A stretch of DNA of 64,000 nt, from positions 34,577,829-34,641,828 of the forward strand of contig OX387187.1 in NCBI GenBank assembly GCA_947561395.2, written 5' to 3'. The stretch comes from Buxus sempervirens. Taxonomy: Eukaryota; Streptophyta; Magnoliopsida; Buxales; Buxaceae. Each line of letters starts with the position of its first letter. Within the stretch, counting starts at the first letter, position 1. The position numbers and the translations under genes were made by a program. The notes under the pieces are model-generated. The model saw only the letters and a program-made list of their open reading frames with translations. It did not search any database and was not told the origin of the DNA. Below, in pieces: positions 4,481 to 52,334 of the stretch.

Positions 4481-4622
4481 GTATCCGGTACATCAGACCG
4501 GATAACAAAGGGCCTTAAGGTATCCGGTACATGGTACCGGATACGCTAAGGCTCACACGTATCCGGTATGACTATCCGGATACGGGGAGGAGCACTTATA
4601 TCCGGATTGAGTATCCGGATAC
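4481..4622. repeat. Palindrome array, Element 1 left LTR (4 units, 39-bp period)
   Basis: Four imperfect palindromes of about 26 bp, arms GTATCCGG and CCGGATAC around an 8-10 bp centre, start at 4481, 4520, 4559 and 4598, exactly 39 bp apart. The spacers between units differ. In sense orientation they lie in U3, about 100 bp upstream of the TATA box. The same motif recurs at 5298, 9412, 21001 and 24642 and nowhere else that I noticed in the window. Confidence 0.9.
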
Positions 4623-4712
4623 AGGCAAAAATTTATTTTCTTCAAATTCTGTGCTGGCTTTCCAGGAGATAATGATTTTTTATGATTGTTTGTGCAATTT
4701 GGGGTGTCTACA

Positions 4713-4728
4713 ACTGCCCCTCTTTGCG
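4713..4728 (-). other. Polypurine tract of Element 1
   Basis: The minus strand reads CAAAGAGGGGCAGT immediately before the TGTAGACA start of the 3' LTR. This is the expected place and composition for the plus-strand primer of a Ty3/gypsy element. Element 2 has CAAAGAGGGGGCAGC at the same place. Confidence 0.85.
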
Positions 4729-5107
4729 GGAGCTGCGAAGCAGTGAGCTGCAAAGAGTAGACAAGCCCAAATTGCATTCCCTTGAGCATGATTTGCTCGG
4801 TTCAATTCAATTTTTGTAGAAAACAATTTTTGAGTGGAGATTTGCCAAAAAGGCCCTCACTTTAAGGGGGCATCTCTCCAAGAGTTCTTAAATTCCACTG
4901 AGCCCTTTGTGGCTGTGAAGTGGATTTTAAGCCCAAAAATAGGATTTTTGAAAAACTGATTTTTTTATCAAACCAAGTTGAAAATTGAGTGGATATCATC
5001 CTTTTGACCAGGCACATTTCCCAAGGTTGTCCCAAATTCCACAGAGCTCTTGTGGCTGTGAGGTGGATTTCAAGACAAAAATAGGATTTTTAGAAAATAG
5101 AAATTGT

Positions 5108-5297
5108 AGCACAATTTTGCTCTTCTCTTTTTTCTTTTCTCTTTTTTTTTTCTTTTTTTTTTCTCTTTTTTTTTTTATTTCCTTTTCTTCTTTTTTTTTT
5201 CATTTTTTTCTATTCTTTTTTTCTATTTTTCCCTGTTTTTTTCTCTATTTTTTTCTATTTTTTCTGCTTTTTTCTATTTTTTTTTCTTTTTTCTTTG
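5108..5297. repeat. Pyrimidine-rich low-complexity tract
   Basis: About 190 bp almost entirely C and T on the plus strand, just left of the second palindrome array. The long Phe/Ser/Leu-rich frame through it (4985-5308) is a composition artefact. Confidence 0.7.
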
Positions 5298-5362
5298 GTA
5301 TCCGGTAGGTGTATCCGGATAATGAAGGCTCTGCGGGTATCCGGCCTGAGTATCCGGATCCC
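5298..5362. repeat. Palindrome array upstream of the Element 1 PMD gene (2 units)
   Basis: Units with GTATCCGG arms start at 5298 and 5337, again 39 bp apart. They lie upstream of the probable 5' untranslated exon of the plus-strand PMD gene. Element 2 has its own motif at the matching place (33075-33163). Confidence 0.85.
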
Positions 5363-6522
5363 GCATGTTTACTTAAGTCGCGCGCGACCGCGACTTTTCA
5401 TTTCTTTTCTTCAGTCTCCGACAACTCAGACCGGCCATCTCCTTCTTCTTCTTCACCCGACGACTCGTCCTGCTTCTCCGGCGAGCTCCAGCAACTTCGG
5501 CGACTCCTATTGCTGCCGGCGACGTCCTGCGACTCCGGCGACTTCAGTGATCGGCCATTGACAGCTGCAGTCGAGCCCTAGCTCGATTTCTTCCCATTTT
5601 CGGGGGTTCTCTCAACCCAATATCATTGTCTTTGCTCCGGTGATCTTCTTTGAACTCCGGGAATCCAATTTCACTTTCTCTATTGCCCATCAAACAGTAA
5701 GTGCAACTGGGCATCTTTATGTATTTTCTTGTTCATGCCGAATTGCCACTTGTTCTATGAATTTTCTGTTAATTTCATCTGATCACTTACTTCCCCTAGG
5801 CAAGAAGGATTCAGACCTTTCATTTGCTATTGAATTCTTGGATGAACCATTTTCGGCCTAGTTCTTTGCTGCTGAAACTTTTCAGACTTAATGCCTTGTG
5901 CTTTGCTATGATCATGATTTCTTTCTTCTTTTGTGGTATCCTTGAATTAATGCTATCTCAGAATTTTGGACTATCTGCTGCTGATATGAACTGATGATTT
6001 CCTGTTTCTCGCATGCCAATTTTGTATGTTAGAACAAACTTTGCTTTCCTAATTTGGTGTTGCCACAATTCTTTAGAACTGTTCCTGTGCCAATCCCCAA
6101 TCGGATGGTTCACGGTAGGCTTTTCCAGCCTTGATGCCACATCTGTTTTTCTGGTCTTGCTCCTTCTTGATGTATGTACTAACTGCCAGTGGATTTACAA
6201 GCTTTTGCTTACTCCTCCTTTTGCTATGAATTTTTCTTAATTAACTGTCCAATCTGGATTTCTGCAATTCTGCTTGCTTTTGATGCCTTGACCTTCCCGC
6301 TTCTCATATCCTGGAACCATAACATACAGGAAATGTTAAGTATTGTAGGAATCTTTTAGAAAATGTTTCAAGATTAGAAACAGAAATATTCCTCACTTCA
6401 ACACTTTAGAGGTAACTTAGGTGAGGTAAAATTCCCATAATTTCGAAAAATAATCATGTAAAACTAGATATGCACCATAAGCAAAGCCAACTTTGAAATT
6501 TATAAAACACTTCCCTGTGTAG
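5363..6522 (+). promoter_or_regulatory. Promoter, 5' UTR and 5' UTR intron of the PMD gene
   Basis: A C/T-rich leader with repeated CTCCGGCGA motifs (about 5420-5580) is followed by a donor GTAAGT at 5697 and an acceptor TGTAG ending at 6522, directly before the ATG. The implied 826-bp leader intron has a counterpart in Element 2 (33494-34609), where the acceptor also abuts the ATG. No clear TATA box is visible. Splice sites are inferred by eye. Confidence 0.5.
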
Positions 6523-9204
6523 ATGGCTAGGGGTCGTTCCCGAGTTAGAGAGGAGGTTGACCCAGCTGATCAGCCCTCCAGTTCGCGGGCTCGGACAGAG
6601 GCGAGCTCCAGTGCCACCTTGTCTGAGCCATTGGATGTCTCTCGAGAGAGCTCTGCTGAGGTAGGCTTTCAAAATTTTTTTCTTTCTTTCTTTCTTCCTT
6701 GTACAAATCTTCACGCTGCTCCTTTGCAATTCAGCCCGTGGTTGCACCCGCTCGTGGTCGAGGCCGAGGCAGAGGCCGGGTTCAGGATCAGGCCCCTGAG
6801 GGCGAGAGAGGCCGTGTTAGAGGCCGAGGCAGAGCCAGAGATATGGCTCCGGAGGGGGTTGCTGTAGCCCTTGCAGGAGTTCCTGAGGAGTTGAGGGCCT
6901 CTGTGCATGATACAGAGCTCCTCCATGGCTTGGATAGCCATCCTTCTATGTGCATCCGGGCAGATGTGCCGCTTCCTTATTATTCCTCCCACTTACGAGG
7001 TAGCTGGGGCAGATTTAGTGATCTAGCTCAGTCGCTTTCTCCAGCACTCAGGCGGGAGTTTGGGAGGTGTCATCTGGATCACTTCCTCAGCATTCCATCA
7101 TTCAGAGCCGACCGTCCACTCATCTTTGCCATGATGGAGAGATACTTTCCAGAGACACAGTCGTTCCACCTGCCGGACGTGGAGCTGGGGATCCGCCCCT
7201 CCGATTTTGTGATGATTACTGGCATTCCTCTGACGGGGCGGACCATCGTCTTGGAGCGGCCTTCTGCGGAGGATATGGGACTTCTCCTGGGATATCAGGC
7301 CCTGCCTCCTACTGCTTGGGATGGGCGGAGTGGCCGGCTCTCCATTAGTTGGTTGCGGGAGAGTCTGGCTCGACATTTTGAGGGGAGGCACAGGACTGTG
7401 GCTGTGGATGATGCTGCATTTATTCCTATCTTCCGGCACGTATTCCTGCTGATGCTTGGGAGCTGCTTTTTCCCGGAGGATACGACCGGCGTCAGCCCAC
7501 TTTTCCTGGACGCTTTGAGAGATCTCCATCAGACCCGCCAGCTAGCATGGGGTCGGCTCATTTATGGGACCATCTTGGCCGGGTTGTGCCGGGCAGTTCG
7601 AGGTCTGGCATCCCCGAGAGGCGATGGAGTCAGCAGCCGGTTCTTCTGGCAGATTCTACAGGTATTGCATTCATCTGTCTAGCTTAATTCTTTAGGCTTT
7701 ATCTTTTCTTGACTGATTTTTCTTTTGCTAGGTGTTCATGTACACTTACATGACCTTCTTCCGCCCCTCCCCGGTTCCTGAGGTTGCGGATTTCCCTGTG
7801 GCCCTGCGATGGTCGGCCCAGGTTCGAGATGCCGATAGGAGCCAGCCTCGTACCGCTCGGGTGCACTTAGACCGTGCACGCCGATCTGATGTAAGTCCTC
7901 TATTTTTTTCTTTTATTTTCTTTCCTGTATCTTGACTGTATCTGACCACTTTGCTTCTTTGCAGCTCATTCTATCCCGTCCAGATGACGTGGATGTCGGA
8001 GTTGCCCGTGAGATGGCAGTACAGGATGCTTTTGAGAGAGATCTCCGACGTCAGCCTTACCAGTGCTTCCTTGGGAGGCTTGGTAGGGTGATGTACTTGG
8101 GAGAGCGCCTGTACTACCAGCACACTGGCGCACTTCGCATCCCCGTCCCTCCTCCTGCTATGGGTCCCGACACACTCCTCCCGGGCTTTGATATTGATCA
8201 GTTCGATCACTTCTTGGATGCGGAGGGGCTTACAGTAGCTGGAGATTATGACGAGTGGTTCTAGCGGGTGTCTATCGGATGCTTGATGGATCGACCCACT
8301 CGTGCTGGGGTGACTGAGATTGGCGGGATCCGTATCCGGATCCATGAGGACACGGTAAGCCTTGTACTCTTCCCATTTTTATCCTCTTTTCCTTCCTTAT
8401 GCCTTTCTGACCATGCTTCCGTTCTTATTGGCAGGTACACGAGCTGAACTCCATTCGGGACCGGTTCGAGAGCCAGCGGGCTGCGATCGATGATATGATC
8501 GCGGAGCACGATGCGGTCGTGGCCCAGCGGGATGCCCGGATCAGGGAGCTGGAGGCCCTAGTTGCTGAGCTCCAGTCTAGACAGGTATCTGGCCTTCTCA
8601 TATGTTCATTTCTTTCATTATTTTCCTGTTTCTGCTATTCTGATATGCTTGTTTGACTTGTGCAGGGCCCGGTCCATGATCAGGATGCCTTCTTTGAGCA
8701 TGATTTCCTGATTCCTGACCCATCTCCTGCTCGGGCCTCTGATCCTGTGGATGTCCCAGCTGCTGATCCTGACGAGCCGGATCCCCCTGCTCCTTCTGCA
8801 GACATTCCTGGTATGATCTTCTTTTTATTCTCCTCTTTTATTCTTCCTTATATCTGAATCTTCTGATTTTTCTCTTTTCTGTGGACTCAGCTATTTCTGA
8901 TCCTGGCCCCTCTGCTGCTGATGCTGGGCCTTCTGGAGCTGCGGGAGCAGAGGATGCTTTGGATGAGGGCCCAGTTGGGCCGGTTGCTGCTGAGCCCGAG
9001 GCTTCTTCCCCCGATTCTACTCCTGCTCCTCCCCCGGATCTCGAGGATTATTGCTTGGAGTATCATCTTCAGCAGGTGGTGGATCGGCATCCTCGCCATG
9101 CGGCCGAGCGGATTCTTGCATACTCTAGAGGCCGAGCCCTTTGGGGGAGACGCCGTAGAGGTGGACGCAGCCGAGGACGCGGGGATGATCCTGCACAGGA
9201 GTAG
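6523..9204 (+). CDS. Antisense plant-mobile-domain (PMD) protein, Element 1; premature stop in exon 4
   Basis: Multi-exon gene opposite to gag-pol. Inferred coding exons: 6523-6660, 6735-7661, 7732-7890, 7965-8354, 8435-8584, 8666-8810 and 8891-9204, joined by GT-AG introns of 70-81 nt that keep frame. The design is 740 codons. After an Arg-Gly-rich stretch (about residues 50-85) comes a domain of the PMD family (aminotransferase-like plant mobile domain; MAIN/MAIL1 relatives), with the hallmark FPETQSFHLPD at about 184-194 followed by IRPSDFVMITGIPLTG. Exon 5 encodes a charged coiled coil and the C-terminus is RG-rich and basic. An in-frame TAG at 8262-8264 would end the product at about 507 aa; Element 2 has a sense codon there. 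PMD proteins in the host act in gene silencing and genome stability, and one branch is known to travel with transposons. The role here is unknown; control of the element's own expression is inference. Confidence 0.75.
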
Positions 9205-9411: not shown

Positions 9412-9552
9412 GTATCCGGTCTGACATACCGGATACATGGATTGGTCTTTGTATCCGGTATGTTATACCGGATATTCATGGGATCCTCGTATCCGGTATA
9501 CTTATCCGGATATTACCAAAGCCTTTGTATCCGGTCTGAGTTACCGGATATG
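9412..9552. repeat. Palindrome array upstream of the Element 1 DUF7745-like gene (4 units)
   Basis: Units with GTATCCGG arms start at 9412, 9451, 9489 and 9527 (39, 38, 38 bp apart). The last ends about 12 bp before a plus-strand TATAAAT at 9564-9570. Directly abutting a core promoter is a classic operator-like position. Confidence 0.9.
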
Positions 9553-9563
9553 TTAAAAGATGC

Positions 9564-9680: not shown

Positions 9681-11329
9681 ATGGAATCCGGATCATCTTC
9701 TGCCCCATTATTGTCTGTCCACACTGCCTCCCCTGCAAAACAGCCTTTTAGATCAAAACCCCCAAATCTCACTAGGTACAACCCTGTGGATTCCTTTTAC
9801 ACAAGGTGGGTTAACTCTATGTCCCTAGATGAGGAGAGGAGATGGGGTACTACCAATCTAGGCCATACCCTGCTCATTCCCAAGGTTCCCTTTAGGTGGG
9901 AGATTATAGAGGCCATGATTGGTCATTGGGTTCCTGATCTCAACTTGTTCCGTTTTGGGACCCATGAGATGACCCCAACCATTGAAGAGGTGGAAACCAT
10001 CCTGGGCCTGAGGTTTGATGAGAAGGTGGTGAATCCACCTCTAAGGCCCAGTTACAAAAAGGAAGCTTTTACTTTTTTGGGCATAGGGAAGAAGGACTTG
10101 GGGGATTCTGACACCCTTTTGACCCTATCTAAGGCTTTTTTGACTGAGAAGCTTTTGAGGGGAGAAGATAAGGAGGCCCGATTCAATGCGTTGACCCTGA
10201 TAGTGGTCAACCAGTTGCTTTTCCCACGGGAGGATGACGAGGTGGACTTGGCCTTGATTTCCGTGATATGCCAGGTTAGGGAGCGGGAGAGGTTGGCCCC
10301 TATGATTTTAGCTGGGATATATCAAGCTTTGACTGATTGCTACAATAGGAAGTCGAAACGCTTCCTAGCATGTGCCCAGATTCTGCAGGTAAAAAGTTTT
10401 TTTTTTTTTTTTTTTATACAATGTGCTGACACCTCTCTCTTTCTTTGCAGCTTTGGCTACTTGATCATTTGAGCCAGATTGAAGAGATCAATCGACACTT
10501 CTTCCCGAGTCTGAAAGTCCCTCTCTTGATGAGCAACAGGGGGTGCCCCGATATTCCAGGGGGCAAACAGGGCTGGTTCACTTTCTTGGGCTCGCTTCAG
10601 GATGACCAGGTGAGATGGCCTGGTACTTATCAGCCTAATGCGGAGACAGTGATTAGCTTCCGAGACCGCAACTTTCTGATTCTGGCGGGCCTGAAGCATG
10701 CAGTGCTGTATCTTCCTCTGCGGGTCCTTCGTCAGTTCCGAGCGACCCAGGGGATTATCATCCCATGTGGATATGAGGATCGTCTTGGGCCCCTTTCTAT
10801 GAAGCTGAATGCCTGGTTGATGAAGGAGTGGTCCTATGTCCGCTTTATGCATGGTCCAGTCTTCTCAGAAGCCCATGTGAAGGATTATCTCTTCTGGATC
10901 AAGGAGCAGATACAGACTCAGGCCCCGGTACCCGAAGATCCTCCTGTAGTCTTGGCTCCCACCTATGAGGACATTCTAGAGTCTGAGCGGGCTTCTCATA
11001 AGCGGCTTCAGCAGATATGGGTACGGGAGGCCCAAGAGCTCAGGATACAGGGCGCTTATCTGGAGAGGCAGCTTGAGGAACAGATCTCCCGCCGTACTGC
11101 CGTGGAAGAGAAGCTGGAGGAGCAGAGGCAGGCCCGTCGCTTTGAGGTCCGTATGATCCGGCAGAAGTACCAGGATACTTTGGCCAGCCTTAGGAGTATG
11201 CGGATCAGGCAGGCCCTTTCAGATGAGGTCATTTCCTTCCTGAGTGATCCCGCTGCAGAGGGGGCTTCAGGAGTCATTGCAGCTCAGGCAGCTCGGATTC
11301 GGGAGCTTGAGGAGCGGCTAGGAGATTAG
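9681..11329 (+). CDS. Antisense DUF7745-like protein with C-terminal coiled coil, Element 1 (intact)
   Basis: Two exons, 9681-10388 and 10451-11329, joined across a 62-nt intron (donor CAG/GTAAAA, poly-T tract, acceptor TTTGCAG) give 528 aa. I chose ATG 9681 because the upstream ATG at 9588 falls only about 18 bp after the TATA box and the Element 2 protein also starts here. Residues about 30-400 resemble the plant DUF7745 family found in transposon-linked proteins, with signatures PTIEEVETILGL and LAGIYQALTDCYNR. From about 411 to the end it is strongly coiled coil (LEEKLEEQRQARRFEV), ending LEERLGD. No catalytic motif is recognised. The reading frame has no lesion, unlike its Element 2 homologue, and most differences between the two are conservative. 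The gene converges on pol, 0.9 kb away. Function is unknown; a nuclear structural or DNA-associated role is conceivable. Confidence 0.75.
10389..10450 (+). other. 62-nt intron of the DUF7745-like gene
   Basis: GTAAAA donor, a run of about 19 T and TTTGCAG acceptor. Removal joins ...ILQ to LWLLDHL in frame. The same junction exists in Element 2 with a 231-nt pyrimidine-filled intron. Confidence 0.75.
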
Positions 11330-12264: not shown

Positions 12265-15200
12265 TCAAGGAAAATACCTTTTTACCGCATCAGAGTTAAT
12301 GGGCTCAGGAAAATCTGACCCATCCATTTCTGCCAAGATGAGTGCTCCCCCTGACAGGACTTTCTTGACGACATATGGGCCTTCCCAATTGGGCTTGAAC
12401 TTACCACGAGGGTCTTCCAAAAATGGTAGAATTTTCTTTAGCACTAAGTCTCCTTCTTGGAAAGTTCTGGGCCTCACTTTCTTATTGTAAGCCCGGGCCA
12501 TTCTCTTCTGGTACAACTGTCCATGGCAAATTGCTTTCAACCGTTTTTCTTCTATCAGGTTAAGTTGATCATGTCTTGACTGGATCCATTCAGCTTCTTC
12601 TAGTTCTGCTTCTATGAGCACTCGGAGTGAGGGGATCTCTACTTCCACGGGCAAGACTGCCTCCATCCCATAGACTAGGGAGTACGGGGTTGCTCCAGTT
12701 GAAGTCCGGATCGAGGTTCTGTAGGCATGTAGAGCAAGTGGCAGCATTTCATGCCAATCTTTGTAGCTCACTACCATCTTCTGAATAATTTTCTTTATAT
12801 TTTTGTTTGCTGCTTCCACTGCCCCATTCATCTTTGGCCTGTACGGAGCTGACTTATGGTGGATGATCTGAAACTGCTCACACATCTTCTTCATGTCCTT
12901 GTTCTTGATATTTGAAGCATTGTCAGATACTATGGCACTTGGCAGCCCATAGCGACAAATGATATTGTGCTTCAAAAATTTAATAACATGGTTGCTTGTG
13001 ATATTTGCATATGATGCTGCTTCCACCCATTTAGTGAAGTAATCAATTGCCACCAGGATGAATCTGTGCCCATTCGATGCCTTAGGTGAGATCATGCCAA
13101 TAACATCTATGCCCCACATAGAGAAGGGCCAGGGTGATGTCATGTTGTGCAGCTCGCCTGGGGGTGCATGCTTGTTATCTGCATATATCTGGCATTGATG
13201 GCACCTTTTGACATGTATACAGCAATCATGCTCCATGGTCGTCCAGTAGTATCCCAGCCTCAGGATCTTCTTAGCCAACATGTGTCCACTCATATGGGGC
13301 CCACAGACTCCTCCATGTACAGTCTCAATCAGCCTTTCCGATTCAGCCTTGGCAACACATCTTAGCAGAATGTCGTTATGTGACCTCTTGTACACATGTC
13401 CACCACTTAGTAGAAATTGACCAGCCAATCTCTGTATTGTCCTCTTCTCAGTAGCAGTGGCATTTTCTGGCAAACTCCGATTGTTCAAGAAATTTTTGAT
13501 ATCTTGAAACCACGGTGCTTCTTCTTCTTGTGCTCCCTCTAGAACGAGACAGTAAGCCGGTTCATCTCGGACCTCAATTTCCAGCGGTCTGATGTCTACT
13601 CCTTCTGATATGCTGACCATTGAAGCCAAGGTTGCTAGAGCATCTGCAAACTGATTCTTGGCCCTTGGCATATAGTTGAAGGAAATTCGAGTGAAATTTG
13701 TGCTTATTTCTTCCAAATACTGGTGATAGGGGATCAATTTGTGATCCTTGGTTTTCCACTCACCAGTTGTTTGGAAGATGATAAGACTCGAATCCCCGTA
13801 TACGTCAAGTTCCTCTACTCCATGATCCATGGCTGCTTGCAATCCAATTATGCATGCCTCATATTCTGCTATGTTATTGGTGCACTGGAATCTCAGCTTT
13901 ACTGCAATTGGGATATGTGAACCATCTGGTTTAACCAAGACTGCCCCTATTCCGTTCCCATTCATATTGGCGGCCCCATCAAAGAACATCTGCCAAGAAC
14001 TCTCACTGTCCTCCTCTTCAGTGTACAGAATTGCTTCATCTGGGAAGTTGGTCTTCAAGGGTTGATATTCTGGCAAAGGATGTGCAGCCAGGTGATCAGC
14101 TATGGCTTGACCCTTGATCGCCTTCTGGGTGATATATGTGAGGTCAAACTCGGACAGTAGTAGTTGCCACTTTGCCGTCCTGCCAGTCAGTGCCGGTTTC
14201 TCAAATAAATACTTCAGCGGGTCCATCCGGGATATCAATAGTGTGGAGTGACTAAGGAAATAATGCCTTAGCCTCTGAGTGGCCCACACTAGAGCACAGC
14301 AAGTCTTTTCCAATGGTGTGTATTTGGCTTCGTATTCCGTGAATTTTTTACTCAGATAGTAAATTGCCCTTTCTTTTCTACCAGTCTCATCATGCTGTCC
14401 CAAGACACATCCCATCGACGTTTCCAACACTGACAAGTACAGGATCAGCGGTCTTCCTGGAGTTGGTGGCACTAGCACAGGCGGGTTCAGCAAATACCTC
14501 TTTATTGTGTCAAATGCCTGTTGGCAGTCCTCATTCCAGACCGTCGGGTTATCTTTCCTCAAAAGTTTGAAAATTGGTTCACAGATAGCAGTGAACTGTG
14601 CTATGAACCGGCTTATGTATTGAATTCTTCCAAGAAAGCCCCTGACCTCCTTCTCAGTTCTGGGTGCTGGCATTTCAATTATGGCCTTGGCTTTAGCCGG
14701 GTCAATTTCAATTCCCCTTCGGCTCACTATAAACCCCAGTAATTTCCCTGATGTAGCCCCAAAGACGCACTTAGCCGGGTTAAGCCTTAAGCTGTACTTC
14801 CTGAGACGATCAAACACTTTCTTCAGATTGATCAAGTGGTCCTCCTCTTTGCATGATTTGGCAATCATATCATCCACGTAGACCTCCATCTCCTTGTGGA
14901 TCATGTCATGAAATAGTGCAGTCATGGCCCGCTGGTATGTTGCCCCGGCGTTCTTAAGCCCAAATGGCATGACTGTATAGTGAAATGTGCCCCAAGGTGT
15001 GATAAATGCTGTTTTCTCTTGATCCTCCTTAGCCATCTTGATCTGATTATATCCCGAGAAGCCATCCATGAAGGAAAACAGGCTATGTACCGCAGTATTA
15101 TCGACCAGAATGTCGATGTGTGGAAGCGGAAAATCGTCCTTTGGGCTTGCCCTGTTCAAGTCTCTATAGTCCACGCACATTCGGACCTTCCCGTCCTTCT

Positions 15201-15852
15201 TTGGTACCGGCACTATGTTTGCGAGCCACTCTGGGTACGTAGAGACTGCCAAAAATCCGGCTTGAAATTGTTTGACCACTTCATCCTTGACCTTCAAGGT
15301 CCATTCAGGCTTCAATCTTCTCAGCTTCTGCTTAATTGGCTTAACCCCTGGCAAAATTGGCAACTTGTGTACCACCATGTCAGTGTCCAACCCCGGCATG
15401 TCCCGATATGACCAAGCAAACACATCCTTGTAATCTGCCAAGAACAGTGACATTTCATTCTTCTGCACATCAGACAAGCATGACCCGATTTTTACAATTT
15501 TTGGGTCATCTTTGGTCCCAAGATTTATGGATATGGTCTCCTCAATATTAGGTTGGACCCCCTTTTCATGACGTTCCAATTGGTATTCAATTTCTTTTGG
15601 AACGTCTTCTTCTTCGACCTCGGTCTCTTCTTCGACCCCCATGAGATCAAAGTCGAGCTCAAGGTCGAAGTCATATTCAACCTGGTCTAATTCGGTCTGA
15701 TTGTATGGCTCATAAGTGGTTTGGACCTTTTTGAAAAATTTAAATTTTCTAGAAAAAATAGAAAAATCTTTTTGGGTTTTTTGTGGGCCTTCTAAACATA
15801 ATTCCCCTGAAGACGAAGGCCCATTAGAACCTTCAGGGAAATGGCATTCCAC
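12265..15852 (-). CDS. pol: Element 1 pol: RT, RNase H, archaeal-type RNase H, integrase
   Basis: Open frame of 1195 codons. RT lies at about 170-385 (VDYRDLN, PFGLKNAGATYQ, catalytic YVDD at 325-328). A first RNase H lies at about 465-590. A second, archaeal-type RNase H lies at about 618-745 with D625, E663, D687 and D737. The integrase has a zinc finger (H846, H853, C884, C887), catalytic D916, D977 and E1013, and a C-terminal GPY module at 1158-1160. Two RNase H domains are diagnostic of Tat elements. The first codon is a GTG at the frame edge, not a real start: in Element 2 this frame is continuous with the protease/G-patch part. Here an A9 instead of A10 run (15861-15869 as T on plus) puts it one base out of frame with the upstream ORF. 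All catalytic residues are present. Confidence 0.93.
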   Translation of the reverse strand: MECHFPEGSNGPSSSGELCLEGPQKTQKDFSIFSRKFKFFKKVQTTYEPYNQTELDQVEYDFDLELDFDLMGVEEETEVEEEDVPKEIEYQLERHEKGVQPNIEETISINLGTKDDPKIVKIGSCLSDVQKNEMSLFLADYKDVFAWSYRDMPGLDTDMVVHKLPILPGVKPIKQKLRRLKPEWTLKVKDEVVKQFQAGFLAVSTYPEWLANIVPVPKKDGKVRMCVDYRDLNRASPKDDFPLPHIDILVDNTAVHSLFSFMDGFSGYNQIKMAKEDQEKTAFITPWGTFHYTVMPFGLKNAGATYQRAMTALFHDMIHKEMEVYVDDMIAKSCKEEDHLINLKKVFDRLRKYSLRLNPAKCVFGATSGKLLGFIVSRRGIEIDPAKAKAIIEMPAPRTEKEVRGFLGRIQYISRFIAQFTAICEPIFKLLRKDNPTVWNEDCQQAFDTIKRYLLNPPVLVPPTPGRPLILYLSVLETSMGCVLGQHDETGRKERAIYYLSKKFTEYEAKYTPLEKTCCALVWATQRLRHYFLSHSTLLISRMDPLKYLFEKPALTGRTAKWQLLLSEFDLTYITQKAIKGQAIADHLAAHPLPEYQPLKTNFPDEAILYTEEEDSESSWQMFFDGAANMNGNGIGAVLVKPDGSHIPIAVKLRFQCTNNIAEYEACIIGLQAAMDHGVEELDVYGDSSLIIFQTTGEWKTKDHKLIPYHQYLEEISTNFTRISFNYMPRAKNQFADALATLASMVSISEGVDIRPLEIEVRDEPAYCLVLEGAQEEEAPWFQDIKNFLNNRSLPENATATEKRTIQRLAGQFLLSGGHVYKRSHNDILLRCVAKAESERLIETVHGGVCGPHMSGHMLAKKILRLGYYWTTMEHDCCIHVKRCHQCQIYADNKHAPPGELHNMTSPWPFSMWGIDVIGMISPKASNGHRFILVAIDYFTKWVEAASYANITSNHVIKFLKHNIICRYGLPSAIVSDNASNIKNKDMKKMCEQFQIIHHKSAPYRPKMNGAVEAANKNIKKIIQKMVVSYKDWHEMLPLALHAYRTSIRTSTGATPYSLVYGMEAVLPVEVEIPSLRVLIEAELEEAEWIQSRHDQLNLIEEKRLKAICHGQLYQKRMARAYNKKVRPRTFQEGDLVLKKILPFLEDPRGKFKPNWEGPYVVKKVLSGGALILAEMDGSDFPEPINSDAVKRYFP

Positions 15853-27994: not shown

Positions 27995-27999
27995 TTGTT

Positions 28000-32621: not shown

Positions 32622-32709
32622 TATTTTTAGGCCTTTTTGACCTGTTTTAAGCTCTAATTACATGTTTTTATTATTTTCTCATTTGGCAGTGCAATTTGGG
32701 GTGTCTACA

Positions 32710-37747: not shown

Positions 37748-37863
37748 TACGAGCAAGCTGTGCCCGTAAAGTTACCACGGGCGTGCGTTGCCCGTGAACT
37801 TTTCACGGTCAGCTGTGTCCGTAATTTCTATACGGGCGAGCCTTGCCCGTCATATAATTACGG
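37748..37863. repeat. Palindrome array upstream of the Element 2 DUF7745-like gene
   Basis: Starts at 37748 (TACGAG), 37776, 37804, 37831 and 37859 (28, 28, 27, 28 bp), with GCCCGTA or TCCGTAA partners. It ends about 25 bp before TATATAAA. Confidence 0.88.
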
Positions 37864-37887
37864 AATTTACTGTCTTACGATTTTTTC

Positions 37888-43700: not shown

Positions 43701-44633
43701 CTTCTTTGGTACTGGCACTATATTTGCAAGCCATTCGGGGTATGTGGACACTGCTAAGAATCCAGCTTGGAATTGCTTAACCACTTCATCTTTAACCTTC
43801 AATGTCCATTCAGGTTTTAACCTTCTCAGTTTCTGCTTAACTGGCTTAGAGTCTGGTAGAATGGGTAGCCTGTGCACCACCATATCTGTGTCTAACCCCG
43901 GCATATCCCGATATGACCATGCAAACACATCTTCATAATTAGCCAAAAATCGTATCATTTCATCCCGCTGTACCTCAGATAGACATACCCCAATCTTCAC
44001 TATTTTTGGGTCATCTTCGGTCCCTAGGTTGATTGATATGGTCTCTTCGATATTGGGTTGGACCCCCTTTTCATGACGCTCTAATTGATATGTGATTTCT
44101 ATTGGAACGTCGTTTTCTTCGTCCTCGGTCTCTTCTTCAACCCCCATTAGGTCAAAGTCGAGCTCAAGGTCGAAGTCATACTCATCCTGATCCAATTCCG
44201 TTTGCTTATATGGTTCATAAATGGTTTGGACCTTTTTGAAAACTTTATCTTTTCTAGAAAAAACTGAAAAATCTTTTTGTGTTATTTGAGAGCCTTCTAC
44301 AAAACCTTTCCCTGAAGACGAAGGCTCATTAAAGCCTTTAGGAAAAGGGCATTCCACTAATGGAGTTTTTTTTTTGGAAGCCATGTCTGTTTGCCAAACA
44401 AACGCGGCTTCAAAAGTAAGGGGAGTTTCCTCCCAATTATTCAGAATGAAAGAATCTGGGGCAGGGATACAAGCCTGCTCCTCGAGCTCATGGTCTGCAT
44501 CTGAGATCACCAGTACTGAGTGAGTTGCATTGCCTGCTTCTTCGGTAGGGCCAGTTCCAGATGGAACTTCTACTGCAGCCCAATCAATAAAAGGTAGCTC
44601 CTCTGCTACTTTTTCTTGGTTACCTTCTGTCAT
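40770..44633 (-). pseudogene. pol: Element 2 pol with one in-frame stop in the integrase
   Basis: The frame is open to 41460 and then continues in the same frame to 40770. It has RT with YVDD, RNase H, archaeal-type RNase H (FFDGAA, AEYEA, YGDSSL, FADALA) and integrase, as in Element 1. The single lesion is TGA at 41460-41462 in place of the TGT (Cys) codon of Element 1, between the first and second catalytic Asp of the integrase. At its N-terminal side the frame is continuous through the A10 run at about 44366-44375, where Element 1 is shifted. The protein start shown is the first ATG after the gag stop; real expression probably depends on the upstream gag frame. Confidence 0.88.
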
Positions 44634-44756
44634 GGCAAAGAATGCCCCTACATCCTCAGCAAAGTCCTGCTCCTGTTCTGCCTGTGGCCCAGGCCCACCA
44701 GATGCTTGTGTAGGTGGAGGTGGAACATATGGTTGTATGGTGGAGGGTTTGGGTTT

Positions 44757-47700
44757 CTAGAATGGGTTGATATTGTAGTATGGAGGTTTGGACTGATCAT
44801 CAGGAGGAGACAGCTGAATCATGTGAGACAGCTTAGGAAAAGTTTCCCTGATGTGCGGGAATTTCATAGCTTCTATCTGTCCCTGACTTTTCCATTTCCT
44901 TGGTTTGGACCCCAATCCTGCTCTGTGAACCATCTTCTTAACCTGTACTGGTTCTATCCTTCCTTGTAGGTTAACCCCCAGTCCTTTTCCAGGGTGAAAA
45001 TGGTACTTTTCTAATACATTTTTGACCATTCTCTCAGCACAGGTCAACTTTCCTTCTTTTTCCTGATACCCCCCAGGTATATAATTCACAGCTTCAAATT
45101 GAAAAGAGTGATATGTCAACTTATCTGCAGTCATTTCCATGCTAATACAGGGTACATCAGGGGACCACATGGGGGGAACCAAGTTTTCGGCCAGGACGGT
45201 AATCACCTTTTGCCCTCTAATGTATTTGACTCTCTGGTGGAGGGTAGATGGTATGGCCCTAGCCGTATGAATCCACGGCCTTCCTAGGAGTAGGTTGAAA
45301 GCCGCAGGTATATCCATCACTTCAAATGTGATGTTGAAAATATACGGTCCAATTGTGACCGGCAGTTCAACCTCCCCTAGAGAGTGTGTTTTAGAGCTGT
45401 CAAATGCTCTTATAATTCTTCCATTTTGTTTTATTTTGTTTCGCTCCAGATTGAGCTTAACAAAGGTTACTAAAGGGCAGACATTGAGGGCTGACCCATT
45501 ATCAATCAAGACCCGGGCTATCATGCAGCCCTTACTGAGCACAGCAATGTGCAAAGGATCCACATGATGGTACCCTGCTGGACTGATTTCAGTTTCAGAA
45601 AAGGTTATGACATTATGGGATAATATTTGCCCAACCATCCGGCCTAGTTGGTCTGGTTCAATGTTTTTAGGCACATGGGCCCCCTGGAGTATCCTTAACA
45701 AGGAGTCCCTATGTTTTTCTGAATTTAACAATAGGCCCAGTATTGAGATCTGGGCAGGGACTTTGTTCAATTGCTCGAGGACATTGAACTCACTCTTTTT
45801 TATTACCTTCATGAGGTCAGCAGCCTCACTGTTAGTTACCTGAGGGGCCTCTTCCCCTACTTTGGCCTTGCCTTTATTTCTTTCTTCTTCTTTATCCTTC
45901 TCTGTTTCTTTCTGTTTTTCTTCCACCCCTACACACTTTCCTGACCTCATCATAAGGTTTACTTCTTCCTTGCTTTCAACTGCAGGGCATGTAGTGGTAA
46001 ATGCTTCACTGTAGTTCCATGGTACCGCCGATTCAATGTAGGAAGGCTTAGGGACATTCACCACCAATGGGGGAAGTTTGGACTTAGCGATGGAAGTCTG
46101 AGTAATAGGAACATTAACAACCAATGGAGGAAGTTGTTTTGGTTGGGGGTTTGCAGAAGTGACTAAGGCACTAAAGGGGTCACAATTTATGACCAATGGT
46201 GGCTTAGACCGAACGGGCGGAGTAAAAGTGGATGGATGGCAATTGATGACCAAAGGTGGCTTGGTGATGTTCATCTGGGCCATGAGGGATGAGACCCGGT
46301 CCAAAGATGAGCTAATGTTCTTTGCAGCACTATCATTCCCCTTTGAAATCATATTTATTTCTTTGCCTTCACCTCTCCTGTCAAAATATACTTTGACCGT
46401 TGTCCCTATGGGAGCAATTAATTGAGATGGGTCAAAGGTTATTTTGTCAAAAGAGATGACTCCTATGACATTAGATGGGCCTGCCCCGTGATGTTGGGGC
46501 AGTGAGTTTTGTCCAATATCTGTTCTTGGAGGATTGGAAGCCCCTGTATTGAAAGACAGGGTATTCTGGTCTAGTAAGTCCTGAATGGCATGTTTTAAAG
46601 GCCAGCACTTGTCTGTAGGGTGCCCAGGTGCACCCATATGGTAATCACAAGTGGTGGAGGGGTCAAAATTTCTCCCCTTAGATGCATTCGGATTAGGTTC
46701 TCTTAAGGTGATATACGCTCCTTGCAATAAAGTGGGCAGCAATTGAGAGGGAGTCATTGGAATAGGGGTGAAAACCCTATTTCTCCTTGCTGCAAAATAG
46801 GCGTCCTTTTCCTCTTTGGTAAAAACCCTTTTTTGGTCTGAAGATGCTGTTGGAACATTAACCCTCATAGGGGCCTGGGTAGGTGGAGATGGAGTAGGAA
46901 AATGAGCGGGTACGTTGATTTGTATGGGCTTATTAGGGCCAGATGGTGGCTGTACCATGTTTACCTCACCCTCCTTCTTGTTCCCATTCTTTTTTGTCCC
47001 GCTTCCTTTCTTTAGGTTGGGGTCCTGCTGGCTAACCATGGCAGAGTGGTCAAAAATCTTACCTGACCTTATTCCATCCTCAATTCGGTCAGCCACTTGA
47101 ACCAAAGCTGCAAAATTAGTGGTGGTCTGACCCACCAAGTGACTGTAGAATGGTTGACCCAAAGTGCTTATGAAGGTAGAAATCATTTCCTGTTCTAGCA
47201 TGGGTGGCCTGACCTGAGAGGCTGTCTCCCTCCATCTCTTGGCATATTGCCTTACAGTCTCTTCCCTTCCTTTGCTCATTCTCATAACGTCGTACCTATC
47301 TGGCATGATCTCTGAATTGAACCGGTATTGAGCCAGGAAGGCATCGGCTAGGTCCTTCCATCTTTTGATCTTCCCATGGTCCAGAGTGGCGAACCATCTT
47401 AATGCGGTTCCTGTCAGGCTCCTTTGGAAAAGTTGGATCAAGATACCCTCATCCTGCCCGAACTGGCATAGGGCACCACAGTATAACTTTAGGTGGCTCA
47501 TGGGGCAACCAGTGCCATCATACTTGTCCAAGTCTGGGCACTTAAACTTGGCCGGCAGGTTAACATTGGGGTATAGGCACAGGTCTTCAAAATTGGTGCC
47601 TCCAAAGTTGTTTACCCCTTTGACTTCCCTTAGTTCATCTTGGATCATTTCTAGCTTATGCATGAACTTTCTTTCAACCTCTTCCCTTATCCTTTCCTTT

Positions 47701-47990
47701 TCCTTAGCCTTGTTTGATTCAGCTGTCTCATCCCTGGTTAGTATAGGTTCAGGGGTGGGTTCATAGACGGGTTCAGGAGTTGGTTGCACTGGAGGTGGAA
47801 CGTTGACTTGGGGTGGAGGTGCAGGGTTGGATGTGGATGCCTGGTTCTGGGCCTGCATTTGTTGGGCTTGCACTTGTTGGGCCTGTACTGACAGTATGTT
47901 CTCTAGCATTCGGGCTAGTCCTGCCACTTGTTCTTGGAGTAGAACAACATCTGGATGAGGAGCATCAACTTCATCTTCAATGGGATTCAT
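44757..47990 (-). CDS. gag: Element 2 gag and protease/G-patch ORF, ended by TAG
   Basis: 1077 codons from ATG 47990. Capsid domain at about 155-310; CHHC zinc-knuckle-like motif C448, H451, H457, C462; linker with four PLVVN-like repeats at about 579-650; protease DNGSA at 830-834; G-patch at about 985-1025 (HPGKGLGVNLQG). The frame ends at TAG 44757-44759 where Element 1 has a CAA codon. Downstream sequence continues in the same frame into pol, so a single C-to-T-type change may have split an originally continuous gag-pol frame. Alternatively the TAG is a read-through site; Element 1 argues against a conserved one. Confidence 0.9.
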   Translation of the reverse strand: MNPIEDEVDAPHPDVVLLQEQVAGLARMLENILSVQAQQVQAQQMQAQNQASTSNPAPPPQVNVPPPVQPTPEPVYEPTPEPILTRDETAESNKAKEKERIREEVERKFMHKLEMIQDELREVKGVNNFGGTNFEDLCLYPNVNLPAKFKCPDLDKYDGTGCPMSHLKLYCGALCQFGQDEGILIQLFQRSLTGTALRWFATLDHGKIKRWKDLADAFLAQYRFNSEIMPDRYDVMRMSKGREETVRQYAKRWRETASQVRPPMLEQEMISTFISTLGQPFYSHLVGQTTTNFAALVQVADRIEDGIRSGKIFDHSAMVSQQDPNLKKGSGTKKNGNKKEGEVNMVQPPSGPNKPIQINVPAHFPTPSPPTQAPMRVNVPTASSDQKRVFTKEEKDAYFAARRNRVFTPIPMTPSQLLPTLLQGAYITLREPNPNASKGRNFDPSTTCDYHMGAPGHPTDKCWPLKHAIQDLLDQNTLSFNTGASNPPRTDIGQNSLPQHHGAGPSNVIGVISFDKITFDPSQLIAPIGTTVKVYFDRRGEGKEINMISKGNDSAAKNISSSLDRVSSLMAQMNITKPPLVINCHPSTFTPPVRSKPPLVINCDPFSALVTSANPQPKQLPPLVVNVPITQTSIAKSKLPPLVVNVPKPSYIESAVPWNYSEAFTTTCPAVESKEEVNLMMRSGKCVGVEEKQKETEKDKEEERNKGKAKVGEEAPQVTNSEAADLMKVIKKSEFNVLEQLNKVPAQISILGLLLNSEKHRDSLLRILQGAHVPKNIEPDQLGRMVGQILSHNVITFSETEISPAGYHHVDPLHIAVLSKGCMIARVLIDNGSALNVCPLVTFVKLNLERNKIKQNGRIIRAFDSSKTHSLGEVELPVTIGPYIFNITFEVMDIPAAFNLLLGRPWIHTARAIPSTLHQRVKYIRGQKVITVLAENLVPPMWSPDVPCISMEMTADKLTYHSFQFEAVNYIPGGYQEKEGKLTCAERMVKNVLEKYHFHPGKGLGVNLQGRIEPVQVKKMVHRAGLGSKPRKWKSQGQIEAMKFPHIRETFPKLSHMIQLSPPDDQSKPPYYNINPF

Positions 47991-48034
47991 GGCTCGAGCT
48001 CTTGATCTGGTTACAGGAGCTATGATTGCGAGTG

Positions 48035-48217
48035 TATTAGTACCTGTATAAATAAAGAGAAAATATCAGTGCCAATTTAATCTCATTCACATGCCTATGA
48101 ATGCCTATGTGCAAGCTGGGTGAACACGAGTTTGGATTTGTTTCTTTTCTTTATTTGCTTCCTTTCTTTTTTTCTTTTTTTTTCTTTTTTTTTTTTTTAT
48201 ATTTTGGATTGAATTGT
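48035..48217. other. Spacer upstream of Element 2 gag
   Basis: Low-complexity T-rich DNA (48160-48200) between gag and the leader repeats. No gene. Confidence 0.4.
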
Positions 48218-49073: not shown

Positions 49074-49265
49074 TCTCTATTTTTTTTTCCTTTTTAATTA
49101 TTTTGTTTGTTTTTTTTTTTTTTTTTTGTTTTTTTGTTTTTTTGTTTTTTTTTTGAAGCATTTTATTCAAACTTGTTTCCCTTTATCATTATTTAAAGGT
49201 TAAAAGAATATTTTAGTGGGAAAAACTGATTAAAGTTGAATATTCCGAGAAAACCGTATACACAG

Positions 49266-49390
49266 TACGGTCCAGCCCTGCCCGTATTCAAATTACGAGC
49301 AAGCCGTGACCGTATGTAATTCACGGGCGAGCCTAGCCCGTATAACCAATACGGGCAAGCCCAGCCCGTGTACTAAATGTGGTTTTACGG
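49266..49390. repeat. Palindrome array in the Element 2 leader
   Basis: TACGG/TACGAG/CACGGG/TACGGG starts at 49266, 49294, 49322 and 49350 (28-bp period), with GCCCGTA-type partners, plus a trailing half-site at 49386. Confidence 0.87.
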
Positions 49391-49988
49391 AACCCTGTTA
49401 TATTTTTCCAGTTTTTACATGGTTTGATCACTTTCATTGTTCATCCAAACGTACGGTTCACCCATTGCAGAGCTTCTAAACTGTCCCAAAGTGGACTTTG
49501 GCCTTTTTGCTAAAACACATGCTTGGGAGGGCACATGTACCCTCCAAATTAACATCATACTCAAGAATTTGATACCCTTTTGTTGCCTCTTGTGTGTACA
49601 TAGGGTAGAATTGATTCTAAACAGAGTTAGAAACTCTTCCTATGGGCTGCACCAACTTTTAGAACATATGCATATTTTGGGACCAATTTTATCCCAAACC
49701 CATGGGTACCATGACACCCCTATGACATGAAAATAATGCAAAACAATAGGATTACCTTGTTACCTTGTTTACCTTGAATATAGCATCCGCATTATGCCCT
49801 GGTTTGTAAGCCATGCACACGGCCTTCCCACAATCATACAACCCCATATTCCCACGTAATTGTGTAATTTAGCCAAAAACGTGTAACTCCACCTTCAAGC
49901 GTAGGGGTTTTGGGTTTTGGCTTAATGGCAACTTAGCACTCAAGCCTAGTGATGACCAGAATCCCAGATCCACATTATCATCACATCA

Positions 49989-50066
49989 TTAGCTCAAAGT
50001 TCTAAGGTGAATGTTTTCACTTTCGCTTTCCGAAGTATCGACCTCGTTGCGCCAAGCTACACACAT
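49989..50066 (-). CDS. Leader uORF, Element 2 (25 codons)
   Basis: ATG at 50066, stop TAA at 49989-49991. It encodes MCVAWRNEVDTSESESEN then IHLRTLS, matching the start of the Element 1 frame at 21622. It may regulate translation of gag, or simply mark a conserved RNA element. Confidence 0.35.
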   Translation of the reverse strand: MCVAWRNEVDTSESESENIHLRTLS

Positions 50067-50591
50067 TCGGGTTCAACTTCCTATAGGTTAAGGGTAGGCT
50101 GTGTAAAAACAAAAGGTGCATAGTGCATTGTAAAAATAGGGTGCATTCACAATGTCCCAAACCCTTGCCACTCTTTTCGCAGCCATGCATAAACAAACCA
50201 AGGCATAATAGGAAAGCATATTTAAAATAAACAAATAAATAAAGCAATCCTATAGCACCCAAAACATGCTCATAAAAAAAATCATCTATCATGCAAACAT
50301 ATGATCATGTTATACACCCAAAATCATCATGGAGATCATGCTGCAAATTAAAACATGCTATCCTAAAAATATAGCAAGAAACAAGCATATTTCAGCAAAA
50401 CGGACCTCCCCTACGCATGTTTGTAGAAACAATCCTATAAATCCAAATTAAGCATGTTTCTACCCCCATGAATTCTTAAGCAATAATTCATATTTAAAAC
50501 ATACTCAACATGCTTAAGAACACAAAATAGCAAGCAAATCAAAAAATATAAAAAAATGAACTAAAACACCAAAAAGGCTCAAATCCACAAG
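50067..50591 (-). other. Leader of Element 2 next to the PBS
   Basis: Non-coding, rich in CATGC and AAACATGCT phrases as in Element 1. No gene. Confidence 0.4.
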
Positions 50592-50609
50592 TCCCCAGCA
50601 GAGTCGCCA
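50592..50609 (-). other. Primer-binding site, tRNA-Arg type, Element 2
   Basis: Minus strand TGGCGACTCTGCTGGGGA, identical to Element 1, two bases from the LTR. Confidence 0.9.
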
Positions 50610-52006
50610 GTTGTGAGACATGGGAAAAAAATCAATCTAATGATTTCCTCAATCATCACACGGGATTAAATTAAACAAAGAGTCGCCACCATTCAATTTA
50701 GGTGTGAATGGACACCAAAATATTAAATAAGCACAAAAGGCAAATTTTAGGGCAAAATATCCCTCCTAAAAAAAACAACCAGAGATGGGAAAGGGGATTA
50801 AGTTATGAACAGGGGAAGGTGTTAGGCACCCCTATTCATCCACACAAGGTGGTTGCCAGGTATTGTTCATGTTTAAAATAAAGGAAAAAGCTTGCTATAA
50901 AAATCACACAAAATCACAAAAAAAGAGGAAGATGTATGGTTTTTTCATACGAATAGTCTGATTGATCCAGAACTATCAAATATGATCATACCATTCCTAG
51001 GGTTTCATGATCAAAACAAATTTGAGATAAAATCAAATAAAATCAATTTAAAGTGAAAAATCCAAAAATCTGGCTTCAAGTCAAATTCTAGAAATCTGGA
51101 AAAATATGATTTTTATAAAATATTTCAAAATTGAACTTGAATAGTCCAGGACATAGATAAAGCCTAAATTTCACATTAAATCAGAAAATAAAAACCAAAA
51201 ATACCTTTATTGGTAAAAAACACCGAAATGGGAGAATTTAGACCGTAGGGTCTTATCTCAATAATGAAAAACGATTTAAAAACCACATCATGAAACCCTA
51301 GAAGTTATTTTCAGGCTTCTAGATTCAGATCTATCATATTGATCATGATAAATCCAAGATCTTAGCCTAAAATCACAAAAATCACGAAAACAGTGCTGTA
51401 GGTGCAAAAGTGGCAAAAATCCAAATTTTATCAAAAATAGGGGATCTCATGCTATAAACATCATGGATTCATGTATTCATTCAGATTCATCATAAAAAGT
51501 ATTAAAACATGATCAGGATATTTAAAACAGCCATATCTCACAAATTAGAGCACATGGGGGTCTACCCTACGGACCCACCTGTTCTCTTTTCCCCTAGTTC
51601 TCTCTTCACGTTTTACGGCTAGAGAGACTCTTGAGGTACTTGGAGATAGGTTTGGTTACACAAACACAATCACAGGCTTTATTCTATGAAAAAAAGAAAA
51701 AAAAAACAGATATAGGGTTCTATTCTAGGGATCCACCTGTTCCCCTTTCCCCTAGTTCTCTCTTCACGTTTTACGGCTAGAGAGACCCTTGAGGTACTTG
51801 GAGACAAGTTTAGGGATACAAAATAGATATGGCCTTATTCTACAGCAATAGAGATGATCCTATTACTTCTAGAATTGAAGACAGAAAATAAAAAGGGATA
51901 GGGGACTTACCTGGATTGAGCAGGCAGGCAGCAGGAGTTCTTTCTCTTCTCTTGAAGCTTTTGATTCTTCAAAATTTCGTGGCCCTAAGCTAGAGGAGAG
52001 AGCCTC

Positions 52007-52014
52007 TATTTATA
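52007..52014 (-). promoter_or_regulatory. TATA box of the Element 2 sense promoter
   Basis: Minus-strand TATAAATA, same context as Element 1. Confidence 0.7.
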
Positions 52015-52229
52015 GGCAAACACAGGGGTATGGCTGGTCCAGAAGGATATATCCTGATTCTCAGGATAGAGTGAAATACAGAGATGATGCCCATCCATAG
52101 CCATCCAAGGTGACTTCAGCGAATAAAAGACATAATCCGCTCGTTTAAAGATATATTGGACTTCAAATAAAGCTCGGAAATCGAGAGGAGGACAAAACTT
52201 GCACGTGTCTTTAATGCCCGTAAATATAC

Positions 52230-52334
52230 TACGGTCCAATGGGGACCGTATAGTTACTACGGACGCGCCTGTCCGTAGATAATTTGCGGGCGCAATGGGC
52301 CCGTGAAGCTAATACGGGCAAAGCCTGTTCATTC
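52230..52334. repeat. Palindrome array, Element 2 right LTR
   Basis: Units at 52230, 52258, 52285 and 52313, a copy of the left-LTR array. It lies about 215 bp upstream of the sense TATA. Confidence 0.88.

Follow-up and report, generated by a model that had tools for sequence, protein, structure and literature searches.

Palindrome arrays as candidate lineage-private operators in Tat/Ogre-like retrotransposons of Buxus sempervirens

Why would two related retrotransposons carry rows of short palindromes at the same places but with different spelling and period, and what could read them? The question is raised by a 64,000-nt stretch of the Buxus sempervirens genome (contig OX387187.1, positions 34,577,829 to 34,641,828, hereinafter designated the window), which contains two complete Ty3/gypsy elements with long terminal repeats (LTRs), E1 and E2. 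Both lie on the minus strand and both carry antisense genes for a PMD protein and a DUF7745 protein. We read the arrays as operators for a dimeric or polymerising DNA-binding protein, probably encoded by the element, that would activate the element or release it from silencing, and we give this reading a probability of about 0.5.

Palindrome arrays at four slots of E1 and E2

Scans with the motifs TATCCGG and CCGTA recovered all ten arrays near the places given by the first-pass annotation of the window, those of E2 being slightly wider than first described. No strand is assigned to the arrays, which are as follows.

4481..4622: E1 U3 array of the 3′ LTR; 4 units, period 39; LTR TATA box at 4376-4383 on the minus strand
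24642..24783: E1 U3 array of the 5′ LTR; twin of the 3′ LTR array
5298..5362: E1 array before the PMD gene; 2 units; a putative exon and intron of the 5′ untranslated region (5′UTR) come next
9412..9552: E1 array upstream of the DUF7745 gene; 4 units, period 38-39; TATA box at 9564
21001..21146: E1 leader array; 4 units, the last being TAACCGG...CCGGTTA
32503..32606: E2 U3 array of the 3′ LTR; CCGTA-N7-TACGG dimers, one half-site per 14 bp
52216..52319: E2 U3 array of the 5′ LTR; twin of the 3′ LTR array
33061..33164: E2 array upstream of the PMD gene; from the CCGTA motif scan
37734..37865: E2 array upstream of the DUF7745 gene; TATA box at 37889
49252..49392: E2 leader array; from the CCGTA motif scan

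Although five places were originally counted per element, the LTR pairs are 99.6-99.7% identical and their 5′ and 3′ arrays are near-identical twins, so each element has four independent sites. At these four slots (LTR U3, PMD, DUF7745 and leader) the layout is the same and the motif replaced between the two families, as had been claimed. The E1 unit is TATCCGG-N9-CCGGATA, with CCGGATA 16 bp after TATCCGG and a period of 38-39 bp; U3, PMD, DUF7745 and leader hold 4, 2, 4 and 4 units, respectively. Allowing up to 3 mismatches, this pattern matches the window 20 times, 18 of them in E1 arrays, compared with 0.86 expected from shuffles, and CCGTA-N7-TACGG with up to 2 mismatches matches 26 times, 21 of them in E2 arrays (6.47 expected). 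Exact palindromes with 7-base arms number 134 in the window and 41-59 in 20 simulations, a count that missed some of the arrays.

In E2, half-sites alternate between minus and plus orientation at 14-bp steps (13 in two steps, with one half-site missed by the scan), and the final step of the leader array is 22, placing the last half-site 8 bp out of register. The 22-bp TACGGGC palindrome first proposed for E2 is not the natural unit, which we take as CCGTA-N7-TACGG because the arrays start with a minus and end with a plus half-site, and because the outermost half-sites at DUF7745 and leader (37734, 37859, 49252 and 49386) keep CCGTA/TACGG and lose the outer GC. The pattern suggests that the outer GC letters may serve contacts between adjacent dimers.

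The arms appear to be under selection: across the 14 E1 units, 5/196 arm letters depart from the majority letter, compared with 55/126 loop letters (Fisher 5e-21). The choice originally offered, a protein lattice rather than tandem duplication, proved a false one; a TGAGT loop is common to the final units of all E1 arrays, so the arrays look as if they had been duplicated from one ancestral array and afterwards maintained by selection on the arms. The arrays are also locally rich in CpG, with an observed/expected ratio of 0.97-1.53, compared with 0.49 for the window and 0-0.93 for the flanks, except for 1.27-1.29 just downstream of the PMD arrays.

At three of the slots the array stands immediately before a predicted promoter. 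The U3 array is 97 bp (E1) or ~200 bp (E2) from the LTR TATA box, the DUF7745 array is ~12 bp (E1) or ~24 bp (E2) from its TATA box, and the PMD array stands before the putative 5′UTR exon. The leader array lies 1.2-1.5 kb downstream of the 5′ LTR. Both 5′ LTRs contain a consensus splice donor, CAG/GTAAG, downstream of the TATA box on the minus strand (~24429 and ~51910; present in both LTRs), so the leader with its array may be intronic.

Synonymous divergence (dS) between E1 and E2 is at least ~0.9, with saturation in three PMD pieces; by this measure the two are old relatives, and unconstrained non-coding DNA should therefore not align between them. Despite this age, non-coding flanks align above shuffles at the LTR end (21/21 letters), from the U3 array to R, left of PMD, right of the leader and left of DUF7745 (E2 37712-37728 and E1 9392-9408, 17/17 identical), which argues that the arrays occupy matching slots. 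Among the eight flanks compared, those right of the DUF7745 and right of the PMD arrays did not beat shuffles, and one of the eight comparisons is low-complexity.

Motif classes, common geometry and element lineage

In the 676.5-Mb assembly containing the window, TATCCGG-N9-CCGGATA (class A, the E1 motif) occurs at 28,399 places, compared with 5 for a reversed-pattern control. Among the first 90 distinct places listed, 48 of the 58 within-cluster steps are exactly 39 bp, and five groups share the order LTR, leader, DUF7745, PMD, LTR. With slot names assigned by distance, the leader lies at +3.7-3.9 kb, DUF7745 at +14.9-15.6, PMD at +19.5-19.8 (three of the five groups) and the second LTR at +20.1-20.7. 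Whether the motif is equally frequent outside such elements, a point raised by the first-pass annotation, is thus answered in part: the first 90 of the 28,399 places cluster in 39-bp steps. In three of these five groups, the pieces read have the class A motif at each of the four slots. An alignment of 20 arrays of this class, from E1 and fetched copies, gives pairwise differences (over pairs that are not independent) of 38/2128 in arms (1.8%), 308/1368 in loops (22.5%), 346/1726 in spacers (20.0%) and 239/1715 in flanks (13.9%). In one copy (L013, G000 C1:4233800-4234700) the loop of the fourth U3 unit is the exact reverse complement of its homologues with the arms unchanged, as if produced by arm-to-arm recombination; because this loop is reversed, loop letters and direction seem not to matter. 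The odd last unit of the leader (TAACCGG...CCGGTTA) recurs in 3 other aligned class A copies and is the only form in which a mixture of motifs within one element was seen.

To place other elements beside E1 and E2, we used the DUF7745 slot. The best 118 of 5,750 first-look candidates from a DUF7745 Pfam search of the genome were scored, so the class shares below say nothing on abundance, and upstream DNA of 110 of the 118 was analysed by a k-mer scan given no motif, the classes being named after inspection. A scan score of at least 6 was reached by 61/71 array loci, 4/39 others and 3/110 shuffles, and the best k-mer cluster starts in the slot (700-899) in 54/71 array loci and elsewhere in 17. 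With array-calling thresholds drawn from one simulated sequence per locus, arrays stand upstream of 71/110 fetched DUF7745 regions, or 73/112 including E1 and E2, and fall into six motif classes.

Class A: TATCCGG; TAT[CCG]G..C[CGG]ATA; 2 loci
Class A′: TATCCGA; TAT[CCG]A..T[CGG]ATA; 1 locus
Class B: CCGTA; [CCG]TA..TA[CGG]; 31 loci
Class B′: CCGCA; [CCG]CA..TG[CGG]; 1 locus
Class C: AACCG-N11-CGGTT; AA[CCG]..[CGG]TT; 37 loci
Class D: AACCGA-N9-TCGGTT; AA[CCG]A..T[CGG]TT; 1 locus
None: 39 loci

The slot is nearly constant, the last dimer lying 306-332 bp upstream of the domain match in 69/71 fetched array loci and further in L084 and L111. Copies lacking arrays at these sites, which the first-pass annotation had regarded as damaging to its claim, do occur (39/110), but 37 of the 39 match the DUF7745 profile from position 11 or before and the 71 array loci from position 18 or later, and the five array-less loci placed in a tree fall outside the array-bearing clade. 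Many members of this array-less group (39 loci among L021-L078) are single long frames of ~480-500 residues; the group may represent another element type or host genes.

Class A′ differs from A by one base per half-site, with TATCCGA in 7/8 half-sites of its locus (L073). It is not a rare variant, because it occurs at 8,452 places genome-wide, compared with 2 for the control, and among the first 50 places listed 19/21 close steps are multiples of 39. The genome-wide count for class C, 19,195 vs 1,691, is too high because the aberrant leader units of class A elements are counted with it. Pairwise differences in arms, loops and flank, for which the arms were delimited only roughly by pattern, point the same way as in class A: 0.119, 0.233 and 0.146 for class B (28 loci) and 0.046, 0.136 and 0.082 for class C (37 loci).

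Read as units, all six classes have the form CCG-N11-CGG, and the flanking bases and the period (28 or 38-39 bp) vary by lineage. Each of the eight arrays counted in the window shows a CCG-to-CGG distance of 14 between 2 and 4 times. In E2 this distance ranks first in all four arrays, and in E1 the repeat step of 39-40 equals or exceeds it in frequency. Leaving aside E1, E2, L084 and L111, CCG-N11-CGG occurs at least twice in 62/69 array loci, 0/69 letter shuffles and 0/39 array-less loci (B 26/28, C 34/37, A′ 1/1, D 1/1, A 0/1, B′ 0/1). The single A and B′ loci contain it once each, probably through decay. The test is partly circular for classified loci, whose classes were defined with CCG-bearing motifs, although the motifs themselves were found by k-mer and not by distance; the telling point is that six separately read motifs agree on the distance 14.

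Mapped onto a DUF7745 tree of 73 rows and 134 columns, the six classes require 5 changes, which is the minimum, compared with a mean of 27.2 in shuffles, none of 200 being as low. Classes C, B and A each occupy one side of a branch (support 96, 93 and 89), A′ is sister to A in the tree that includes the array-less loci, and the period (28 vs 38-39) needs 2 changes. One private motif per element, as first claimed, is found at every readable slot: at 4/4 in E1, E2 and three class A copies, and at 3 slots in the B′ element, which has 4 CCGCA dimers in U3 (0-2 mismatches), 5 at DUF7745 and a degenerate PMD slot. For class C the information consists of positions, for example a DUF7745-like cluster at C1:6683839 with four dimers 5.1 kb further. 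Regions read for the A′ slots (L131, L132) and the B′ leader (L134) contain other sequence, probably nested insertions.

Structure and genes of the two elements

E1 and E2 are, by their predicted domains, Tat/Ogre-like LTR retrotransposons of the Ty3/gypsy superfamily. The Pfam order on the minus strand is RVT_1, RT_RNaseH, RVT_3, rve, and because the integrase follows reverse transcriptase (RT) and RNase H, the Ty3/gypsy order, neither is a Ty1/copia Sirevirus. The extra PMD open reading frame (PF10536) scores above cut-off in both. The features are as follows.

2499..4713, minus: E1 3′ LTR; self-BLAST pair at 99.6%; ends TGTAGAC...CTCACA; 5-bp duplication CCACT
22659..24874, minus: E1 5′ LTR; 99.6% pair of the E1 3′ LTR (self-BLAST)
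30902..32709, minus: E2 3′ LTR; 99.7% pair; duplication GATTG
50612..52422, minus: E2 5′ LTR; 99.7% pair of the E2 3′ LTR
12265..19649, minus: E1 gag-pro and pol frames (RT, RNase H, RVT_3, integrase); Pfam
40770..48065, minus: E2 gag-pro and pol frames; pol interrupted by a stop within the integrase
6523..9204, plus: E1 antisense PMD gene; coding exons 6523-6660, 6735-7661, 7732-7890 and 7965 on
34610..37528, plus: E2 antisense PMD gene; in-frame stop near the end of exon 2
9681..11329, plus: E1 antisense DUF7745 gene; exons 9681-10388 and 10451-11329; open
37987..39809, plus: E2 antisense DUF7745 gene; exons 37987-38685 and 38917-39809; frame broken in exon 2

The PMD gene has several introns, and its coding part starts right after the putative 5′UTR intron; the E1 copy has an in-frame stop in exon 4, its later exons and end being placed by eye. 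The DUF7745 gene has a single intron at a conserved position, ILQ/LW. Nonsynonymous divergence (dN) between E1 and E2 is 0.44-0.59 for PMD (four exon pieces), 0.21 for gag-pro, 0.085-0.151 for DUF7745 and 0.045 for pol.

Between the leader array and gag, both elements carry long but different tandem repeats, at 19846-20694 (71-bp units) and 48256-49068 (~34-47-bp units). Long pyrimidine (T/C) tracts are found at 5128-5296 upstream of the E1 PMD array, at 17379-17462 in the E1 gag-pro frame region and at 38702-38883 in the E2 DUF7745 intron. Outside the elements, the flanking stretches 25059-28636 and 54966-61769 are ~80-88% alike and represent a diverged local duplication, with a B_lectin-like fragment at 27455-27949 within it. 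Of seven pattern matches that could have been viral-contig relatives of pol, none was confirmed (0/7), and a plasmid DNA search gave no match.

Candidate readers and competing explanations

Recognition by a protein is favoured because the arms are conserved, the loops free, the distance fixed and the slots constant, and one protein family with drifting contacts because the core is constant and the flanks variable. Whole arrays and readable slots change in step, which argues that the reader changes along with the motif; such co-change is easiest if the element carries its reader. Fixed spacing with lineage-specific spelling suggests one fast-changing family of DNA-binding proteins, in which contacts to CCG and CGG, 14 bp apart, would stay fixed and flank contacts would drift by lineage. 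The reader, putatively the product of the fast-diverging antisense PMD gene or of the antisense DUF7745 gene, would bind in rows at U3, the promoter of the genomic RNA, at the promoters of both accessory genes, providing self-activation, and also in the leader. Once bound, it would activate the element or remove its silencing, like VANC on VANDAL elements, and as the motif changes in step across sites each lineage would come to answer only its own factor.

To our knowledge, no role has been assigned to the PMD and DUF7745 genes of Ogre-type elements. PMD diverges fastest, and the C-terminus of E1 DUF7745 looks coiled-coil-like by eye, a tail that would fit dimers; we make no choice between the two, both being candidates. 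Somewhat more tentatively than the operator function itself, at a little under even odds, we propose that the PMD/DUF7745-superfamily antisense proteins constitute a hitherto undescribed family of DNA-binding proteins that recognise specific sequences and act as activators or anti-silencers, with a fixed CCG-N11-CGG core, an evolving flank specificity and, for each lineage, a private code at U3, leader and accessory-gene promoters. Searches for protein homologues returned 2, 0 and 0 matches, and a PDB search with E1 DUF7745 exon 1 gave no match up to E 1.

The general kind of array is already known from a published precedent. The nearest in cis is the RM box of Sireviruses, the nearest in mechanism the VANC/VANDAL system. 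In the accessible part of the RM-box account (PMC2829016), CGG-CCG palindrome clusters lie in the LTRs and upstream of ENV; like the arrays here they are element-specific and CpG-rich, with one cluster in U3 just upstream of the TATA box, where E1 and E2 also carry CGG-CCG-core palindromes, and a second upstream of an accessory gene. The Citrus Sirevirus AATCCGGCTWRCCGGATT is close to TATCCGG...CCGGATA of E1 (PMC2829016). By contrast, Sireviruses are Ty1/copia, not Ty3/gypsy, elements with two sites instead of four and with ENV in place of antisense PMD and DUF7745 genes, and that part of the account contains no CCG-N11-CGG geometry, strict 39- or 28-bp period or link of class to phylogeny (PMC2829016). 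In VANDAL elements VANC21 binds dense YAGTATTAY arrays and VANC6 other motifs (PMC5735166); much like the motifs described here, they are short and family-private, are densely arrayed in non-coding parts of the element, both before genes and within introns, and change between related families (PMC5735166, PMC10398659). There the DUF1985 reader was shown by chromatin immunoprecipitation sequencing and electrophoretic mobility shift assays (PMC5735166), whereas the reader proposed here is putative.

Among related Tat elements, PMD is present in 57% of Ogre elements (PMC6317226), and Retand carries an antisense gene, TRP28, for which a regulatory role was already suggested; extra genes as found here, antisense in Retand, are thus described in the accessible parts of these accounts, which contain no promoter arrays or private operators (PMC6317226, PMC11963269). 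No description of such arrays in Tat/Ogre elements was found in the literature searched, most subscription papers lying outside the search, nor was the name DUF7745, the four-slot gypsy layout, the CCG-N11-CGG rule, at least six private classes per genome or a match of class to lineage. Gal4-type sites, read by fungal zinc-cluster proteins, present two inverted CGG triplets at fixed spacing to a dimer. Their orientation is opposite (CGG-N11-CCG), and no zinc-cluster protein was seen here.

The strongest competitor to an element-encoded reader holds that host transcription factors with a CCG core read the arrays, each lineage having been captured by a different family member, with tissue- or stress-specific expression as the result. 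An AP2/ERF- or MYB-like family would be a candidate, and AACCG resembles a MYB site. The CCG core common to six classes agrees with this, as do two statements in the RM-box account, that the CGG-CCG core is shared across distant monocots and dicots and that RM boxes matched stress-related PLACE sites (PMC2829016). Because Sirevirus RM boxes show the same triplets in another superfamily, we keep a host reader at about one third. It sits less well with the one-base shift from TATCCGG to TATCCGA in step along whole arrays, with the 14-bp geometry kept, with motif classes that are lineage-private on the DUF7745 tree, and with arrays that stand also at the elements' own accessory-gene promoters and in the leader, well beyond the LTR. 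Far less probable is that the palindromes act as nucleic-acid hairpins, be it as triggers or decoys of small interfering RNA or as replication or recombination structures, with protein recognition secondary. Palindrome clusters in maize Sirevirus LTRs are said to attract small RNAs (Bousios 2016, cited in PMC10760457), a full-length sense RNA would hold the leader array, both accessory-gene arrays and the 3′ U3 array, and the reversed L013 loop is what arm-to-arm recombination gives. For a hairpin, however, complementarity of the arms would suffice, and no repetition of one 7-letter sequence across 14 units and four sites is called for; in E2 the N position is not matched between partner arms (TACGGAC faces GCCCGTA, for instance), and the slots fit promoters, not transcript regions.

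Two further readings we regard as more improbable still. Repeat seeds without function, of the tandem or satellite kind known from the hypervariable 3′ regions of Tat elements, would account for the two arrays that the TRF program reports as tandem repeats and for the shared TGAGT loop, since array duplication probably happened. Neutral repeats, by contrast, would not hold arms at 1.8% difference with loops and spacers at 20-22%, keep CpG-bearing arms or fix the slot in 69/71 loci. Alternatively, the rows of CCG/CGG, which offer both CG and CHG context, could be boundary or methylation-sensing sites for a factor that binds unmethylated DNA only and keeps the promoter open. Retention of CCG and CGG in six classes and the CpG-rich islands formed by the arrays are compatible with this, which by itself leaves the lineage-specific flanks unexplained; methylation sensing may instead be an added property of the operators.

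Several observations weigh against an element-encoded operator system. The DUF7745 tree is poorly resolved, with 2/66 inner branches strongly supported and 49 open; near-copies inflate the class counts, the independent sample being about six lineages of which three are single loci; and a tree built from DUF7745, not PMD, cannot point to the reader gene. In the B′ element CCG-N11-CGG occurs once in U3 and is absent at the PMD slot, where the sites are decayed. We know of no PMD or DUF7745 gene in Sireviruses, and if Sireviruses lack both, a host reader gains weight. Pfam has no DNA-binding description for PMD or DUF7745. The four pieces scanned for DUF1985, the VANC domain, gave no match at E up to 10, where HMMER filters may drop weak matches, and AlphaFold models of E1 PMD exon 2 (mean pLDDT 44.4) and of a DUF7745 homologue (P0002, 43.6) were both unreliable and so revealed no DNA-binding fold, no fold search having been made. 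VANDAL elements, moreover, are DNA transposons whose motif stands in one orientation, unlike the inverted half-site pairs here (PMC5735166).

Ogre-type elements are among the largest plant retrotransposons. If they do encode the reader, retrotransposons too would use private codes of activation or anti-silencing, as has been shown for VANDAL DNA transposons, and the CCG-N11-CGG core with its changing flanks would amount to six naturally occurring variants in the specificity of what is presumably a single protein family. The host PMD proteins MAIN and MAIL1 are involved in silencing, and the arrays may bear on why they take part in it.

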